From positions 1-20,123 of IMG/VR virus record IMGVR_UViG_3300020022_000006: a stretch of 20,123 nucleotides of DNA. The stretch is one strand, 5' to 3'. Position numbers and translations under genes: made by a program. The DNA is from a virus. The stretch's first letter is position 1. The number at the start of each line of letters is the position of its first letter. This document shows positions 2,249-20,049 of the stretch, one piece after another. The notes beneath the pieces were generated by a model that searched no databases, was not told the DNA's origin, and saw only the letters and a list, made by a program, of their open reading frames with translations.

Positions 2249-2839
2249 ATGGCAATCGAGATCGGGACACATATCCCTCGTCGCATCATTGTCGGCAACG
2301 CCTACACATTCACCGCAGGCGATGCCGATTATCCTGCTTCCGGCGGTTGGACTGCTCAGATCGCTTTCAAGATCGGCAACGCCTCGCCGATAACGTTTCC
2401 CGGAGTCCCGAGCGGCGATGATTTTCTTTTCACGCTAACCAATGCCAACACAGCGACGTTAGCCGTTGGCGACAATCTGGTATGTGTTGTTTTCAGTGAC
2501 GGAACGAATCGAGAAGCGAGCGATTGGCGTGAGGTTGAGGTTTTGCAAAATCCTCTCGCGGCTGATCCTGTCAGCTACGCCCAGCAGCAAGTGAAACTGC
2601 TACAAACTGTGATCGCCGCTTTTAACACGAGCAGCCATAACATTGTCAATTTTAACGGTCAGAGCTTCACCCGCGGCAGTGTGTCTGAGTACCAGAAGCA
2701 GCTCGTTTATTACGAGGCGCGTGTAATCAGAGAAAATAGAGCGGTCGAGGCTGCGCGCGGGATCGCACCGCGTCGCGTTGTCGAACCAGCCTTCACAAGC
2801 AATCGTCGCTGGCCTTTTACTCATTGGAACCAACGATAA
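2249..2839 (+). CDS. Head-tail connector at the gpW position, with N-terminal beta domain
   Basis: This 196-residue protein lies between terminase and portal, the position of gpW in lambda. Residues 1-105 look like a small beta-sandwich, with alternating hydrophobics, DYPASGGWTAQIAFK, and ending DWREVEVLQNP. Residues 110-175 are mostly helical and include FNGQSFTRGSVSEYQKQLVYYEARVIREN in family style, with a 'GRS-x-x-R...L...R..Y..EV.RE' pattern resembling gpW-type joining proteins. The C-terminus is basic and unstructured. Such two-part proteins of about 200 residues are common at this locus in related phages (recalled, not searched). A weak AGGG at 2242-2245 precedes ATG 2249. Its TAA overlaps the portal ATG by one base (TAATG), suggesting coupled translation. 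The role in closing the portal vertex is inferred from position. Confidence 0.6.
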   Translation: MAIEIGTHIPRRIIVGNAYTFTAGDADYPASGGWTAQIAFKIGNASPITFPGVPSGDDFLFTLTNANTATLAVGDNLVCVVFSDGTNREASDWREVEVLQNPLAADPVSYAQQQVKLLQTVIAAFNTSSHNIVNFNGQSFTRGSVSEYQKQLVYYEARVIRENRAVEAARGIAPRRVVEPAFTSNRRWPFTHWNQR

Positions 2840-4641
2840 TGGCAAAAGCGAAACGAAAATCGAAAAGAAAGCCAGAGCCGAAGCGGCGTGGTTATAGCGA
2901 GTTGGTTTCCGGTAACCGAAGCAGCAACGCCGATTGGAACGTCACGATCTTAGGCGAGGATGCCGACGTTTGGCAGAATGCTTGGCTGCTCACGTCGCGA
3001 ATGCGCGACCTTTTCAAGACCAATCCGATTTTTATCAAGTATCGCGAAATTCTGTGGGCGAACATCTTTGGCGAAAATGGCATCATGCTACGGATGAAGA
3101 TCAAGGAATTGGAGGATCGCGTGGTGTTTTCAACGCCTGAGAAAATGGCGCTGATTGCTTACGAGCGACGAATCAACCGTCTGCGTGAATGGGCATCACA
3201 ACGGGATGGTCGTGAGCGTTCGACGTGTCGCGCCTACCAATTGGCGGATGTGATGGATCGCAGCAAGCCCGAGGATATCCTTGAACGGCAAGCGAAGATT
3301 CAAGTGGGCGACCCCGATGTTTTCGCGAATCTTTTAATCGAAAGCGCATGGGCTGAATGGCAGCGACCCGAATTTTGCGATATGCGCGGTTACCGCAACT
3401 ATCATCTACTGCGGCAACTGCGGCTGATTAATGGCGTGCGTGACGGTGATTTTTTCATTCGAATGGTTCGCGAGCCGACCATCAATAAGTTTGGATTCAC
3501 ACTGCAACCAATCTCTGCCGAGTGGTGTGATCGTTTCTACCACCTCGAAGCAACAACGCAGGGAAACGTGATCATCATGGGCATCGAATACGAATCGACG
3601 CCCTACGGAATCGGCAAACCGATCGCTTATCATTTCATCAAACGTCAACCGAATGACTGGCGGTTCACGCTTGCCGGTGTGTTCAACTTTAATTCTGGCG
3701 GTCTGCATGTTCGCGTTGAAGCAAAAGACGTTCTTCACTATGCGCGACCGGTTGACTCTGACAGCACGCGTCCGGCGCCGTGGGCGTCTTCGTGTATACC
3801 AAAGTCGCGCCAGCTCGACCAATACGAGCTGGCTGAGGTGATCGCCGCGCGAGAGCAAGCGTGCAAGACTGGCTTTTATTACTCGGACGTATTACCAGAG
3901 GGCGGCGGCGCGCAGCTCGACGAGGTGCCTAATCCGGCAAGCTCACCAACCGAACCAGCGGCGCCTGGTAGTGCTATCCCGCTTGAATGGGGCGTGAAAT
4001 ACATGGAGCGTAACCCTACGCATCCCACTGGCAACTTTTCGCTGTTCCGTAAAGGGATGGGGCAGAGCACAAGCGCAGGTATGCCCGGTGGTGATTACAA
4101 TGTCTTGTTCAACGACCTTGAAAATATCAATTTCAGTGCCGGCCGTCTTGGGCGACTCGACACGAACGAAATGTCGAAAATGATTCAACGCTTTGACATC
4201 GACACGGCGGAGCGTCCGATCTTCGAAGCGTGGTTGGAAATGGCGATTGTCGCCGGAGCAATTCCATTGCCGTTGGTGAAGCTCAATAAATTTAACAAAC
4301 CAGTTTTTCAAGGCCGCCGTTGGGCGCAGGTCGATGAAATCAAGGCGATCAACTCCGCTGCTCTGCGCATCGCCAATAAACTGAGCAGCCGAAACCGCGA
4401 GTGCGCCGAAGAGGGCGTGGATTTCGAGGAGAACGCAATTGAACTGGCGGAGGAGGAAATGCTTCTGGAATCGCTGGGACTTGAATCGAATATGACAGTT
4501 GAGCATGAACCGGCGGCGCAACCAGCCGAGGATGTTGGCGACACGAGTGCTGCGACAGGTGGAACTACAAAACCTTCCGCGACAACAAAACCTGCGAAGT
4601 CAGACAATGGCGCTGAGGAATTGGAATTTTCGCGAACATGA
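2839..4641 (+). CDS. Portal protein, lambda gpB family
   Basis: The portal is the dodecameric ring at the unique capsid vertex through which DNA enters and to which the tail is joined. The protein is 600 residues from ATG 2839; an earlier TTG at 2824 is possible, but ATG directly overlapping the upstream TAA is preferred. Family-type landmarks are the basic N-terminus, NADWNVTILGEDADV, LLTSRMRDLFKTNPIFIKY near residues 50-70, RLINGVRDGDFFIR near 195, VEAKDVLHYARPVDSD near 300, and GMPGGDYNVLFNDLENINFSAGRLGRLD near 415-440, followed by the WLEMAIVAGAIPLP segment. The last 70 residues are acidic and low complexity, a usual portal tail. The family normally reads 'HvarPxRxxQxRGvp' after this point. 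Here it reads HYARPVDSDSTRPAPWASS, so the RGvp signature is diverged. Confidence 0.92.
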   Translation: MAKAKRKSKRKPEPKRRGYSELVSGNRSSNADWNVTILGEDADVWQNAWLLTSRMRDLFKTNPIFIKYREILWANIFGENGIMLRMKIKELEDRVVFSTPEKMALIAYERRINRLREWASQRDGRERSTCRAYQLADVMDRSKPEDILERQAKIQVGDPDVFANLLIESAWAEWQRPEFCDMRGYRNYHLLRQLRLINGVRDGDFFIRMVREPTINKFGFTLQPISAEWCDRFYHLEATTQGNVIIMGIEYESTPYGIGKPIAYHFIKRQPNDWRFTLAGVFNFNSGGLHVRVEAKDVLHYARPVDSDSTRPAPWASSCIPKSRQLDQYELAEVIAAREQACKTGFYYSDVLPEGGGAQLDEVPNPASSPTEPAAPGSAIPLEWGVKYMERNPTHPTGNFSLFRKGMGQSTSAGMPGGDYNVLFNDLENINFSAGRLGRLDTNEMSKMIQRFDIDTAERPIFEAWLEMAIVAGAIPLPLVKLNKFNKPVFQGRRWAQVDEIKAINSAALRIANKLSSRNRECAEEGVDFEENAIELAEEEMLLESLGLESNMTVEHEPAAQPAEDVGDTSAATGGTTKPSATTKPAKSDNGAEELEFSRT

Positions 4642-4832
4642 AACTCGGCAAATGTGAAATCTGCCAAGAGGCGTGCGCAGAAGGCGATCACGGTTTTCTT
4701 TGTGTCGCCCATGAGCGAGCATATAAAATCGAGCTTGCGGAAATTCTCAAAAGTGAGAACAAGAAGAAACGCAGACCAATTGAAACGCCTCGGACTCAGC
4801 ATCGCGACCCATCAAACCTAACGCACCGATGA
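4638..4832 (+). CDS. Small putative zinc-binding protein
   Basis: A 64-residue protein sits between portal and protease with ATGA overlaps at both ends, so it is almost certainly translated. The first 25 residues contain C6-x2-C9, then C22-x2-H25 (with an extra C13), a possible treble-clef or zinc-knuckle-like site. The rest is a basic, probably helical tail (ENKKKRRP). The family is not recognised. One copy of the TTCTCA-N4-TGAGAA palindrome lies inside it at 4744-4759. Function unknown; it could be an assembly or regulatory factor. Confidence 0.6.
   Translation: MKLGKCEICQEACAEGDHGFLCVAHERAYKIELAEILKSENKKKRRPIETPRTQHRDPSNLTHR
4744..4759. repeat. 16-bp palindrome, copy 1 (TTCTCA-AAAG-TGAGAA)
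   Basis: This is a perfect 6+6 inverted repeat with a 4-base centre, inside the small zinc-protein gene and about 70 bases before the protease start. The 3' side extends to TGAGAAC. Two further perfect copies are at 5406-5421 and 8861-8876. As it encodes E-I-L-K-S-E-N it may be partly explained by protein sequence. It could be an operator or an RNA hairpin. Confidence 0.5.
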
Positions 4833-5482
4833 AAAAAATTCTGAAAGTTCCGCAGAAGCTTTTCCGCGTGGCTACGCTCGAACGCGATTCGGTTGACCCG
4901 GATAAAGGAACGCTGCGCATGTCGATTTCGAGCGATGTGCCTTATCTGCGTTACGATTATTGGAACGATGAGGAGTATTATGAAATCCTCGATCATTCTC
5001 CCGGCGGCATTGGCGAAGATCGCTTGAAAGCTGGTCTACCGATTCTCTTCAATCACTCTTCGGATTCACATCTCGGACGAGCAACTAGCTATATAAACGA
5101 TGGCCATAAGGTCACGGTTGAAGCGAAATTTTCAGAATCAGATTTTGCTCAAGAGAAACTGCGCGATGCGATGAGCGGCGTCCTGCCGGACACGAGCGTT
5201 GGCTACCAACTCGATGATGATGAGGGCGAGTGCCTCGGCGCGAAGGATGGCATACCGATTTACAAATTCAAATGGACGCCATACGAAGCAAGTCTGGTCA
5301 CAGTGCCTGCGGATATTACGGTTGGAGTTGGGCGGCAGCGCGCCGAAAAGCCAAAGGGCGAGCCAAAAGAAATTTCGATTGAAACAAAAAAAGAAGTTGA
5401 CTCTGTTCTCAAAAATGAGAAAACGAGAAACATGAGTGAACCAGCGACAGTGACCGATCCTCCGAAGGAAACGAATTATTGA
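4829..5482 (+). CDS. Prohead maturation protease (S78/HK97 type)
   Basis: This protease acts inside the prohead, trimming the scaffold part of the capsid protein. It is 217 residues long. The candidate catalytic histidine is H76 in LPILFNHSSD and the serine S123 in PDTSVGYQL, matching the family's 'llxxH' and 'SxGY' motifs; the YEASLVTVPAD segment (152-162) is the family's usual EvSlVtxPA. The start ATG overlaps the upstream TGA (ATGA). The last 50 residues (EKPKGEPKEISIETKKEV...) are a charged linker. The frame stops at TGA 5480, exactly where the +1 frame carries on as capsid N-terminal scaffold sequence. Either the protease-capsid polyprotein is made by +1 frameshifting, or the two proteins are separate. 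An internal ATG at 5432, 10 bases after palindrome copy 2, could start a short leader. Confidence 0.85.
   Translation: MKKILKVPQKLFRVATLERDSVDPDKGTLRMSISSDVPYLRYDYWNDEEYYEILDHSPGGIGEDRLKAGLPILFNHSSDSHLGRATSYINDGHKVTVEAKFSESDFAQEKLRDAMSGVLPDTSVGYQLDDDEGECLGAKDGIPIYKFKWTPYEASLVTVPADITVGVGRQRAEKPKGEPKEISIETKKEVDSVLKNEKTRNMSEPATVTDPPKETNY
5406..5421. repeat. 16-bp palindrome, copy 2 (TTCTCA-AAAA-TGAGAA)
   Basis: A perfect inverted repeat within the 3' end of the protease gene. It shares TCTGTTCTCA with copy 3 (8861-8876), so the similarity extends four bases beyond the palindrome on the left. It ends 10 bases before an in-frame ATG at 5432 and 60 bases before the protease-capsid junction. In RNA it would be a 6-bp hairpin with a 4-base loop. 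Confidence 0.5.
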
Positions 5483-5660: not shown

Positions 5661-6794
5661 GTGAAGGGCGAGTTCAAGGATGTCAAAAAAATCGAAACAC
5701 TAACCGTTGTCGATGAGCGCGAGCAGCGCAGCGGCAATAGCGTTGGTGCATTGTTTGTCCGCTCGAAACAATTTCTGGCTGCTATCGCGAGGAGCGGTCA
5801 GGGCGAGCGTTTCGCCGCGATGGATTTTCCAAATGTCAGTATGCTCGGCGCTCGCGGCAAAGCATCATTAAATCAGCGCACCGGATTCAATTCCCCCGAT
5901 CTAGGGGCGATCAACATTCAGATTGTGCCGGAGATTATCGCGCTTGGTGTTCAGAAATTGACCGTGCTTGACCTTCTCGCGCCCGGTGTCACTGGCGCCG
6001 CCGCGATCATCTATCCGCGAGAAAACACGCTTGGTTTGATTGACGGAGTTCAGATTGCCGCTTCGCCCGCCATGCCGCGAGTAAAGACAACCGGTGAGCG
6101 CGGTGTAAAACCAAACTGGGATCCCGATCTGACCACGGTGACTGCGAATGTGAAGAAAATCGCGGTGACCACAAAGGTTCCTGACGAGTTTATGTCGGAT
6201 TTTCCGGCAGCGCAGAGTTACATCGACCAGCGTTTGCCGTTCATGGTGGACATCGAAACCGAGTTTCAAGTTCTTTACGGCGATGGTCTCGGCAATAATC
6301 TGCTCGGCATCGCTTCAACCGCCGGCATTCAGACCCGCGCGATTGACACCACGAGTGACGCCACGATTGCTGGTTCGCTGAAAAAAGGAATCACGGATAT
6401 CCAGGTCGGCTCCTTTTTCGAGCCGGATGGTTACGTGTTCCATCCTTACGATTGGGAGACCGCGAGCTTGCTCAAGGACACGACCGGACGCTTTCTCGCA
6501 GGCGGGCCTTATTATGTTCCATACACTGCGCAAACTTACGTGCAGTTTTCTACGTTCTGGGGCAAGCAGGTTGCAGTCACGGTTGCGGCTACAGTCGGCA
6601 AACCTTTAGTCGGGTGTTTCAAGCTTGGCGCGCAGTATTTCCTTCGCGAAGGGATGCGTCTCGAAATGACGAATGCGAACGAGGACGATTTCAAGCGCAA
6701 CCTGATCGCGATTCGCGCCGAACATCGTCTAGGCTTGGCTGTGTATCGCCCGGTCGCATTTCTCGAATTTACTGGCTTCCCGGTTCGCACATAA
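5661..6794 (+). CDS. Major capsid protein (HK97 fold)
   Basis: The major head protein forms the icosahedral shell. The part downstream of GTG 5661 is 377 residues. It has the typical course of HK97-type capsid proteins: an N-terminal arm, IVPEIIALGVQKLTVLDLLAPG near residues 92-113, IIYPRENTLG near 118-127, an AVTTKVPDEFMSDFPAAQSYIDQRLPFMVDIETEFQVLYGDG spine helix with P-loop region near 167-208, and a C-terminal DDFKRNLIAIRAEHRLGLAVYRPVAFLEFTG segment. GTG 5661 is the first ordinary start but has no convincing ribosome site, and it cuts into a protein-like upstream segment. The natural product may therefore start near 5475 or be fused to the protease. It is followed 19 bases later by an exported beta protein and then a terminator, consistent with a highly expressed head block. 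Confidence 0.9.
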   Translation: MKGEFKDVKKIETLTVVDEREQRSGNSVGALFVRSKQFLAAIARSGQGERFAAMDFPNVSMLGARGKASLNQRTGFNSPDLGAINIQIVPEIIALGVQKLTVLDLLAPGVTGAAAIIYPRENTLGLIDGVQIAASPAMPRVKTTGERGVKPNWDPDLTTVTANVKKIAVTTKVPDEFMSDFPAAQSYIDQRLPFMVDIETEFQVLYGDGLGNNLLGIASTAGIQTRAIDTTSDATIAGSLKKGITDIQVGSFFEPDGYVFHPYDWETASLLKDTTGRFLAGGPYYVPYTAQTYVQFSTFWGKQVAVTVAATVGKPLVGCFKLGAQYFLREGMRLEMTNANEDDFKRNLIAIRAEHRLGLAVYRPVAFLEFTGFPVRT

Positions 6795-6813: not shown

Positions 6814-7377
6814 ATGAAAAAATTCATTTCACTGGTGGCGCTTAGCGCCCTAATGGTAATCTCCGCCTTCGCTCAGGAAAGCTGGCCGGTTTATGCCAAT
6901 GCTGGTGTGCCAAGCAACGGGACGACCGCCGTTTACACGCTGACTATTCAAACCAGCACGTCGGGTGGTAGTTTCACGCTCACGATTGCTAGTGGGCGAA
7001 CCAGTGCTGTTATCCCGTGGAATGCGACCAACGCCACGCTGCTTGCAAGCGTTAAGAGCGCGGTTGAGGGCTTGAATGCTGTTGGAGCGAACAATACAAC
7101 CGTTGCTGCTGGTACCTTGACCGCTGGCATTGGCACGATCACAATTACGATGGCCGGTAATAAGACCGAGCTGGCTTTCCCGGCATTCAGCGTGACAAAC
7201 AATTTAATCACAGGCGGCACGATTCCGACCATCACGAATACCACACCCGGCGTTACAGCTACATTTCGCGATGCCAAACCCGGGGTTATTCTCGTTGATA
7301 ATTCGACCCCTGGTCTTTGGTTTAACGCCTCAGCAACGCGCTACGCTCCGACATGGACACAGATTACAATTCCGTAA
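6814..7377 (+). CDS. Predicted exported beta-sandwich protein next to the capsid gene
   Basis: This 187-residue protein begins with a classic Sec signal: MKK, then a hydrophobic core ISLVALSALMVISAF, with likely cleavage at AFA|QE (residues 20/21). The mature part is Thr/Ala/Gly rich and all-beta. Residues 32-135 (GGSFTLTIASGRTSAVIPWNATNATLLASVKSAVEGL in pattern form) resemble the repeated Ig-like or display domain 'GGTFTLTxxGxxTxxIxYNAxAATVxxAL' found in phage and secreted proteins. The final 35 residues (PGLWFNASATRYAPTWTQITIP) resemble the tail-fibre motif 'GVYYRLTSATPTWAQL' seen at 15860-15910. Position after the capsid gene suggests a decoration protein, but a Sec signal would send it to the cell surface. 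No clear ribosome site precedes ATG 6814. Role unknown. Confidence 0.65.
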   Translation: MKKFISLVALSALMVISAFAQESWPVYANAGVPSNGTTAVYTLTIQTSTSGGSFTLTIASGRTSAVIPWNATNATLLASVKSAVEGLNAVGANNTTVAAGTLTAGIGTITITMAGNKTELAFPAFSVTNNLITGGTIPTITNTTPGVTATFRDAKPGVILVDNSTPGLWFNASATRYAPTWTQITIP

Positions 7378-7381
7378 CACT

Positions 7382-7648
7382 ATGGCTAACTTAATCGCGA
7401 AGCAGACAGTTTTTGCCACCATCGACCGTAGGAAGGCGGTCAAAGAGGGGCATCCCGAAGCGAAATTCCTTCTCGTTCGTGAAGGACATGAAATCTCCGA
7501 GGCTGAGGTTGAGAAGCATGAGGGCGCCGCTGCTCTTGTTGGTAGTAAGGCGTCGACCGAGCCAGTTCACGAAGCGCAAACTCCACAGCGTCGAGTTGTC
7601 GAAGAGGAGGAGCCGAAGCAGCGCCGCAAAAAGGCGAAGCGCAGGTAA
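7382..7648 (+). CDS. Small protein with basic tail, end of the head operon
   Basis: An 88-residue hypothetical protein starting MANLIAKQTVFATIDRR. The N-terminal half looks like a compact beta/alpha fold (VREGHEISEAEVEKH). The C-terminal 30 residues are acidic then strongly basic (EEEEPKQRRKKAKRR) and probably disordered. ATG 7382 lies 5 bases after the previous stop; longer upstream extensions would overlap the signal-peptide gene and were not chosen. It is the last gene before the terminator at 7675. Related small proteins occur between capsid and head-completion genes in many phages, but no function is recognised. Confidence 0.6.
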   Translation: MANLIAKQTVFATIDRRKAVKEGHPEAKFLLVREGHEISEAEVEKHEGAAALVGSKASTEPVHEAQTPQRRVVEEEEPKQRRKKAKRR

Positions 7649-7674: not shown

Positions 7675-7711
7675 CACCCGCCAGTTGTGTTTGCTGGCGG
7701 GTGTTTTCTTT
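7675..7711 (+). terminator. Strong intrinsic terminator after the head genes
   Basis: A perfect 10-bp stem CACCCGCCAG / CTGGCGGGTG (7675-7684 with 7694-7703), a 9-base loop, and the T-rich tail TTTTCTTTGTT. It lies between the small basic protein and the next gene and would separate abundant capsid transcripts from tail transcripts. Confidence 0.9.
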
Positions 7712-17940: not shown

Positions 17941-18648
17941 ATGGCAGCTCTCTTCTCCATCGTCGCGAGCATCACGAGTAAACATCCACTTGTCAGTGAC
18001 CTAATCGCGAATCCTGTTGCGCTACCGCCTTTCTTTTTTGCTGATGCGTTCCAAGGTGCGATTGAGGTTGTAACCGAGACGGATAATCCAAGCGCGCCAA
18101 CTGCGGCACTACCGATTGACGCGTCGACCGGCGTTGTGCTGAGTGATGGAATTTCAGTGATTTACGCCAACGCGGTGATTATTGGAATTGTGAATAGCAA
18201 CGTAATCAGCTTCACGATGACCGTGAGCAGTCAGGCGTTATTGGATGCGCTCGACGCGACCACCGAAGATTATATCAACGCCTTTTTCGAAGCTCGAATC
18301 AGTATCACAGCCGGAGGGCAGAACGAGCTGCTTTTGCGCGAGCCTTGTTTGATTATGAAATCGTCGTCGATTGGCGGCGCGATCATTCCAGCGGTCGTTC
18401 CGGGCGTGATCTTCAATTACAACATTGATGGCTTGCGCGGGACCGCTAATCCAATCACGGCGATTCCTACCGCGGCTCTCGCCACCTTCGTCTTGCTCAT
18501 TGCGGTGATAACCAGTGGCGGTATCCGTTCGCAATCGACTTGGCAGTTGCTTGGTGGTGCTGCCGATCCGACAGACCTGAATGGTCAGGTTGCGCCCGCT
18601 GACTATAACGCGGTGACGAACAATCGTTTTTGGCAACGCGTCTCATGA
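17941..18648 (+). CDS. Baseplate-like or tail surface protein
   Basis: 235 residues from ATG 17941; the open frame begins earlier (17860) but would run through the terminator, so that start is rejected. The N-terminus AALFSIVASITSKHPLVSDLIANP is followed by beta strands (DAFQGAIEVVTETDNPSAPTA..., SFTMTVSSQALLDALDATTEDYINAFFEARISITAGGQNELLLREPCLIM) and ends NNRFWQRVS. The layout is like the 15164 BppU-like protein, perhaps a paralogue. Role on the tail surface is inferred. Its TGA overlaps the next gene's ATG. Confidence 0.5.
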   Translation: MAALFSIVASITSKHPLVSDLIANPVALPPFFFADAFQGAIEVVTETDNPSAPTAALPIDASTGVVLSDGISVIYANAVIIGIVNSNVISFTMTVSSQALLDALDATTEDYINAFFEARISITAGGQNELLLREPCLIMKSSSIGGAIIPAVVPGVIFNYNIDGLRGTANPITAIPTAALATFVLLIAVITSGGIRSQSTWQLLGGAADPTDLNGQVAPADYNAVTNNRFWQRVS

Positions 18649-19268
18649 TTGCAGGAAGGAAATATGGTCGTTTGACCGCAACGAGGGAATTACAGAGTGA
18701 TTCCCGTGGGCATCTTTGTCTCTGGAAGTGTGAATGCGGTGCAGAAAAAATTATTCCAATTGCACCGGTTAAAAGCGGAGGGATTAAGAGTTGCGGGTGC
18801 TGGAGAAGGGATCAATGCAGCCGGACGGGAAAGAATTTTGGAGGTAAGCCGCCAATCTCAATAGAAGAAAAGAAAAGACGATTCACTCAATCTCGGCATT
18901 GCAAAAGATGCCAGAGGCTGCGAATACCAAGATTCTTTGCTGTCGATCCCCGCAATGGCGTGCCGGGGTCGGTTTGTAAGTTTTGCAGACGTGATGACGC
19001 AAGAAAGTGTTATTTCGGTATCAGTCCCGCTGAGTATTCAGAGTTAAAACGAAACCAGCGTGGCAAATGCGCGATTTGCATGAAGCAGCCGGAGCGATTT
19101 CTTCAAATCGACCATGATCACAAAACTGGAAATGTTCGAGGATTGCTGTGTAGGAAATGTAATACCTTGCTTGGGATGGCGTTGGAGAGCGAAGTGACAT
19201 TGAAGTCAGCGATCCATTATCTCGCGGCTTCCAGAGAGGACACAATAATGAAATCAAGCCTGAGTTGA
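18645..19268 (+). CDS. Mobile endonuclease: CxC module fused to an endonuclease VII fold
   Basis: 207 residues from ATG 18645 (ATGA overlap; a TTG at 18630 lies further upstream). The N-terminal 55 residues begin YGRLT and repeat the CxC-x18-CGC module (C29, C31, C50, C52) found in the HNH protein at 823. A Cys pair region follows (HCKRC 85-89, VCKFC 110-114). The nuclease part is CAIC (142-145), QIDHDHKTGNVRGLLCRKCN (154-173), the Zn and active-site arrangement of T4 endonuclease VII (DHxH plus CxxCN). Recombination endonuclease VII resolves branched DNA; in phages this fold also serves as a homing enzyme. It sits between two virion-type genes without visibly breaking either. Confidence 0.85.
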   Translation: MIAGRKYGRLTATRELQSDSRGHLCLWKCECGAEKIIPIAPVKSGGIKSCGCWRRDQCSRTGKNFGGKPPISIEEKKRRFTQSRHCKRCQRLRIPRFFAVDPRNGVPGSVCKFCRRDDARKCYFGISPAEYSELKRNQRGKCAICMKQPERFLQIDHDHKTGNVRGLLCRKCNTLLGMALESEVTLKSAIHYLAASREDTIMKSSLS

Positions 19269-19272
19269 TCAA

Positions 19273-20049
19273 ATGAGACGAATTATCTCCATCTTTTTGT
19301 TGGTATCGGCATTCGCTCTGAGTGTGCTCGCCGTTTTTCCGCTTCCATTTTCGCAATCAAGGATAGGCGCAGGTTGTCCACCTGATTCGATTGGTGGTCT
19401 TAAACTTTGGTTAAAAGCAAATTCGCTCGCGCTTAACGATGGCGATCCTGTTTCTACTTGGACCGATTATAGCGGCACTTCAAATAGCGCGACCAGTGGA
19501 GCGAATCAGCCAGTCTTTCATACGTCGATAATCAATGGCCTTGCCGCGGTTTTATTTAATGGATCGACAAACGGAATGACCTTTCCCAATGATCCTTCAG
19601 TGCCGACATCAACCTTTGTCGTCGCGCAGACAAACATCGCTGCTTCGAGCGCAACGGCTTATGCCGCGTTGATCGTTGATAGCGCTGCCAGTGGTTTTAG
19701 AATTTGTCACCGCTTGACTGGCACAAATTGGGGAACCTATGTAAACGCCGATTTAAGCTCTGGCGAGGATTTGGTTTCAGGGGTACCTAACATTCTCGAA
19801 TTGACAACACAGACCGGAGGAGCATCGAACGCGACGGTAATTTACCGCAACGGAGTGTCAAAGGCGAATAGCACCGTTGTTTCGTCGGGAGGAGCACCCG
19901 CCAATCACCTAGGATATGAAGCGAATAACCGATATTACAGCGGCTACATCGCCGAGATCATCGTTTACAATTCAGTTCTCTCAACGGCCAATAGGCAGTG
20001 CATCGAAGATAACCTTGGCGCGAAATACAACATCGTGGTGAGCCATTAG
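19273..20049 (+). CDS. Exported LamG-like (concanavalin-fold) protein
   Basis: 258 residues with an N-terminal hydrophobic signal (MRRIISIFLLVSAFALSVLAVFP), probably Sec-dependent. The mature part has LKLWLKANSLALNDGDPVSTWTDYSG followed by NQPVFHTSIINGLAAVLFNGSTNGM, a pattern I associate with LamG/laminin-type carbohydrate-binding domains, and a C-terminal GYIAEIIVYNSVLSTANRQCIEDNLGAKYNI, a typical end of such domains. In a phage cluster it could be an attached fibre part, but the signal argues for export to the host surface. Starts 4 bases after the endonuclease gene. Confidence 0.75.
   Translation: MRRIISIFLLVSAFALSVLAVFPLPFSQSRIGAGCPPDSIGGLKLWLKANSLALNDGDPVSTWTDYSGTSNSATSGANQPVFHTSIINGLAAVLFNGSTNGMTFPNDPSVPTSTFVVAQTNIAASSATAYAALIVDSAASGFRICHRLTGTNWGTYVNADLSSGEDLVSGVPNILELTTQTGGASNATVIYRNGVSKANSTVVSSGGAPANHLGYEANNRYYSGYIAEIIVYNSVLSTANRQCIEDNLGAKYNIVVSH

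Follow-up and report, generated by a model that had tools for sequence, protein, structure and literature searches.

A conserved, predicted Sec signal peptide on a capsid-adjacent accessory protein and on fibre-like proteins of a tailed-phage clade

The window, by which we mean the whole stretch of DNA analysed here, is a 20,123-base virus fragment that encodes a GpA terminase (in two ORFs), a lambda-type portal, a prohead protease, and an HK97-type major capsid protein (Table 1). The ORF under study occupies exactly positions 6814–7377 on the plus strand, starts with ATG 19 nt downstream of the stop codon of the major capsid gene, and encodes a protein of 187 amino acids. The initial annotation had placed this gene between the capsid gene and a terminator. 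The capsid side of this placement holds, whereas on the other side a small conserved gene stands between the ORF and the terminator-like hairpin, and such hairpins were no commoner in the real sequence than in shuffles (pattern scan).

Table 1. Positions of the accessory gene, its neighbours, and the second gene with a predicted signal peptide (SP) in the window
Feature	Position	Strand	Basis
Lambda-family portal protein	2824..4641	+	Phage_portal_2 E 5e-52
Prohead protease, Peptidase_S78 type	4829..5482	+	PF04586 E 4e-4; PHROGs head protease/major head families
Major capsid protein gene, upstream neighbour	5661..6794	+	Phage_capsid PF05065 E 4e-23; phrog_10 E 2e-40
Predicted Sec/SPase I SP, 20 codons, cleavage between SAFA and QES	6814..6873	+	n-h-c pattern; 8/8 clade members; codon pattern of purifying selection
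Mature capsid-accessory domain (beta-rich, no cysteine), 167 aa + stop	6874..7377	+	family next to capsid genes; AlphaFold model; virion-domain matches
Small conserved gene downstream of accessory gene	7382..7648	+	own profile: 34 ORFs in related loci
Terminator-like hairpin, then TTTTCTTTGT	7675..7703	+	pattern scan
Second gene with predicted SP, near tail end: MRRIISIFLLVSAFALSVLA, then LamG-like domain	19273..20049	+	rule score 41.5; phrog_10356 virion structural protein E 4e-15

The terminase large gene (39–2201) is split into an ATPase ORF (39–830) and a nuclease ORF (1362–2201), and an HNH-like ORF (814–1365, by inspection) lies between the two; in L003, L004, and L060, the terminase is a single intact ORF. 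Shine–Dalgarno sites are scarce among the window genes and clear on the accessory genes of other phages that lack an SP. A missing Shine–Dalgarno site as a peculiarity of the accessory gene was discarded, because the majority of window genes have none.

The N terminus of the accessory protein, MKKFISLVALSALMVISAFA followed by QESW, shows the layout of an SP, with the n-region MKK, a hydrophobic core, and the c-region SAFA ahead of QE; the predicted cut lies after AFA and before Gln-21. The charged n-region, the hydrophobic core, the small residues at −3 and −1, and the lack of any other hydrophobic stretch or further membrane helix in the protein are the features of a Sec/SPase I substrate. 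SPs were called with a home-made, crude n-h-c rule that recovered all four controls (lambda Lom, Rz, Rz1, and Bor) and, spurious overlapping and antisense ORFs aside, flagged no annotated virion gene in six annotated phages. Lambda portal B, which is annotated as “sig_peptide”, was not counted as Sec, the segment being noted there as a leader peptide. The accessory protein of the window scores 41.5 by this rule, and a score of 36 is reached in 46 of 20,000 shuffled versions of it.

All eight distinct members of the capsid clade carry the SP (the window, L002, L003, L004, L015, L030, L065, and L060, among which L030 and L065 are closely related). L030 and L065 differ by 9 synonymous changes and 1 non-synonymous change in the first 20 codons and by 69 synonymous and 14 non-synonymous changes in the mature part, and this codon comparison indicates that the SP is under purifying selection. 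Because of this pattern, and because the SP is kept throughout the eight relatives despite an alignment identity to the window protein of 34–58%, the SP is more than a product of chance. A chance hydrophobic stretch or a wrongly chosen start codon was rejected on the same conservation and selection, and there is no plausible later start that retains the domain.

Each of the eight accessory proteins has an A-x-A motif or a similar one before the predicted cut and Gln at +1 (6854–6876 in the window), and several fibre-like proteins also have Gln at +1. No member has Cys at +1, so the lipobox of secreted phage lipoproteins of the Llp and Bor type is absent from the eight. The Q-rule for the residue after the cleavage site has been described as Bacteroidetes-specific (PMC5837995). 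A host-wide Q-rule was rejected as the source of the +1 Gln for the one known host, in which 2 of 21 rule-predicted SPs have this residue. The export signal recognized in the initial annotation is thus borne out by the rule score, by its presence in eight of eight clade members, and by the purifying selection, and we consider it highly probable from these sequence features that the accessory protein is exported and cleaved in the cell.

The accessory family emerged by profile only; a tblastn search of annotated phages with the window protein and a single-sequence scan of viral contigs both gave no match. A profile built from four members matched 47 viral loci, from which 40 primary copies were compared, 8 in the capsid clade of the window and 32 outside it. 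In nearly all of them, as in the window, the gene lies directly 3′ of the capsid gene, the adjacency to the major capsid gene by which decoration proteins are recognized, and the same small gene often comes next. The capsid-adjacent homologues from IMG/VR outside the clade (e.g. L016, L022, L042, and L091) thus share the domain, the place after the capsid gene, and often the next small gene with the window protein but start with MPIIEGA or a similar sequence. An SP is absent from 32 of 32 primary copies outside the clade, which upholds the earlier statement that an export signal is unexpected on such a protein. Ahead of the first conserved motif, the mature SP-bearing members have 9–16 residues versus mostly 11–22 in the SP-less homologues.

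The eight SP-bearing phages group together as a single branch of the capsid tree (support 97/85), in which identity to the capsid protein of the window goes down to 43%. The short domain tree places L030 and L065 among SP-less sequences with weak support, so the SP may have been gained a second time or the domain exchanged. Searches of six whole contigs and one host genome for a further accessory copy gave none, so that these genomes lack a cytoplasmic spare. In L065, an HNH-like ORF (5840–6610, by inspection) lies between the capsid and accessory genes; it is absent from the close relative L030. Bacterial genomes yielded one relative, a prophage with lambda-like gene order that lies on a 321-kb contig from a Spartobacteria metagenome-assembled genome (MAG), which provides the one known host. 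Spartobacteria are a diderm group, and the other clade members presumably also have diderm hosts.

For the mature domain, Pfam and PHROGs gave no convincing match, and the window protein had no match to the lambda gpD-type decoration family in either collection at E values up to 1. Among solved folds, the AlphaFold model of the domain (pLDDT 90.6) is closest to two parts of mycobacteriophage Bxb1, namely its tail-tip cage gp23 (Z 15.4) and the C-terminal domain of its capsid protein (Z 10.8), and to a Patience capsid entry (Z 9.6), and profile similarity extends to Bxb1 gp23 (E 1.6e-26) and the Bxb1 capsid protein (E 0.0067). By fold and profile together, the domain is therefore of the virion accessory type found in Bxb1 and Patience. 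The initial annotation had likened the mature part to Ig-like display domains, a resemblance that we could not confirm: no Pfam Ig model scored above cut-off for the window protein (a homologue gave one weak, sub-threshold match to a plant Ig-type model), antibody chains appeared in Foldseek at E values of about 0.8 or worse, and the top structural matches were phage capsid and tail domains.

In Bxb1, the same fold is used on virions (gp23 and the capsid C-terminal domain; PDB codes 9d93, 9d9w, and 9d9x) but belongs to larger proteins that are made in the cytoplasm and have no SP, whereas in the window it forms a separate, SP-bearing protein encoded after the capsid gene. The similarity to Patience (PDB code 8giu, chain 1) extends over 85 residues and covers only part of the Patience protein, which, judging from its length, is probably the minor capsid protein. 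The latter is described as sitting atop the capsid at the local 3-fold axes, and, in contrast to the predicted SP of the window protein, no SP is reported for it in the available portion of that paper (PMC10635136). Since tail proteins and giant chromosomal ORFs contain the domain as well, fold alone does not place the accessory protein on the capsid. The giant ORFs are represented by L133–L140 (G098, G147, G025, and G022), in which the domain lies within frames of ∼13,800–20,500 amino acids on Verrucomicrobiota chromosomes.

The accessory protein is not the only SP-bearing product of these phages. The LamG-like protein near the tail end of the window shares 39–40% identity with an SP-bearing protein of G002; a second HNH-like ORF (18630–19268, by inspection) lies immediately upstream of its gene. 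SPs likewise stand at the start of large fibre- or spike-like proteins in the Spartobacteria prophage and in those related contigs that extend to the tail end, for example a 901-amino acid protein of G007 with tail-fibre repeats, which starts with MKKLFLIFLFGLSSAFA followed by QESL. Several of the SP-bearing fibre-like proteins have PHROGs matches to tail or virion-structural families; for others, such as the 1031- and 662-amino acid proteins of G001, there is no such match, and their fibre-like label comes from position and shared segments. The 804-amino acid fibre-like protein of G003 has no SP, and the rule flagged none of the clade's genes for capsid, portal, and tape measure.

The SP rule flags 19 of 161 ORFs of at least 180 amino acids in the clade versus 3 of 407 in the related loci (one duplicate removed; p about 1e-8, shared ancestry ignored). 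In the six annotated phages, 2 of 147 ORFs of this size pass, neither of them annotated as a virion gene, and the Flavobacterium, Maribacter, and crAss-like control phages showed no SP-bearing structural genes. A search with the fibre N termini in other viral contigs returned almost solely the same contigs. In a phage of another lineage (L100), a 344-amino acid SP-bearing protein with a tail-protein-like C terminus is encoded directly after the capsid gene (5747–6781).

These distributions bear on whether the N-terminal segment acts as a Sec signal at all. It could instead be a hydrophobic arm or membrane anchor in head assembly, or be removed by the prohead protease, which is encoded next door; the available portion of a study on Porphyromonas phages assumes such removal for their SP-like capsid proteins (PMC10367356). 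We regard this explanation as quite unlikely, since all members show the full n-h-c pattern with A-x-A or a similar motif and mostly Gln at +1, and the SP-less homologues manage without such an arm. Cleavage by the prohead protease in particular fits poorly, because the fibre-like proteins, which are not substrates of this enzyme, bear the same signal.

Export could also be real but inconsequential, with SPs acquired by drift and most of the protein still reaching capsids from the cytoplasm. The SPs on different genes look alike and may have been spread by recombination, as MKK...SAFAQES is common to the window accessory gene and the 901-amino acid protein of G007. Retention of the SP across the capsid clade, even at the lowest capsid identity to the window, and the purifying selection on it speak against this idea, to which we give very little weight.

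The initial annotation had further set a decoration protein and an exported protein against each other and proposed a coat on the host surface. The exported part stands, whereas the opposition does not, as the family evidence suggests that the protein may be both. Decoration proteins, spikes, and fibres can be added to finished particles in other phages. The proteins that carry SPs in the clade are of these addable kinds, whereas its capsid, portal, and tape-measure proteins go unflagged, and we therefore favour a path of export, SPase I cleavage, and attachment at lysis. In this proposal, the accessory protein would be made from the head operon and passed through the host Sec translocon, and host signal peptidase I would cut after AFA, leaving an N terminus similar in length to the one that the cytoplasmic homologues have. 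In the periplasm, the folded domain would then wait alongside several SP-bearing tail-fibre-like proteins and would attach to already filled particles, most likely when lysis mixes periplasm and particles. That the accessory protein is a decoration-type capsid accessory of this kind is our leading, if tentative, reading; its incorporation into virions appears plausible from the family and fold, and the timing of attachment at lysis is the weakest step.

We favour joining of virions at lysis over coating of the cell surface. For the latter, a former capsid protein would have been recruited outside the cell for receptor masking or as a surface coat and would no longer be part of the virion; it might serve in superinfection exclusion, keep progeny off debris, or alter the surface of lysogens. 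The conserved export signal, the existence of SP-bearing phage surface proteins (lambda Lom and Bor), the prophage state of one clade member, and the occurrence of a related domain in giant ORFs on Verrucomicrobiota chromosomes would all suit such a role. However, the gene is locked in position to the capsid gene in a late operon, its homologues and fold are of the virion type, and a single masking protein leaves the same signal on the fibre-like proteins unexplained, so that we consider a surface coat, in any of these roles, rather unlikely.

The cytoplasm is regarded as the place where tailed-phage virions assemble. The absence of an SP has even been cited in support of the phage origin of a protein (PMC6199706). 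Like the predicted path of the window protein, lambda Lom and Bor use the host Sec pathway, as do Q-rule proteins of Porphyromonas gingivalis phages according to the available portion of PMC10367356. Together, these are surface, lysis, or capsid proteins (the last with SP removal assumed to be by the prohead protease) or proteins of unknown function; exported decoration and fibre proteins, as read here for the clade, are not described for the Porphyromonas gingivalis phages in that portion (PMC10367356). In the open-access literature, at incomplete coverage, no account was found of tail-fibre or decoration families that bear SPs. Selected Sec signals on a single accessory gene and on fibre-like genes imply either that the rule of cytoplasmic assembly is broken or that virion-type proteins act on the host surface, and either outcome, if true, would change the annotation of SP-bearing phage structural genes. 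The outer virion parts of this virus group may be finished outside the cytoplasm. It is conceivable, though doubtful at present, that a Verrucomicrobiota tailed-phage lineage exports both decoration and tail-fibre proteins via Sec and that its virion assembly ends outside the cytoplasm, during lysis or afterwards.

A survey of 20 further prophage stretches with the same portal family, from 19 Verrucomicrobiota genomes, revealed by inspection an SP-like fibre-type protein in five (G315, G344, G297, G247, and G335), three of which were retained in an automatic count with stricter filters.
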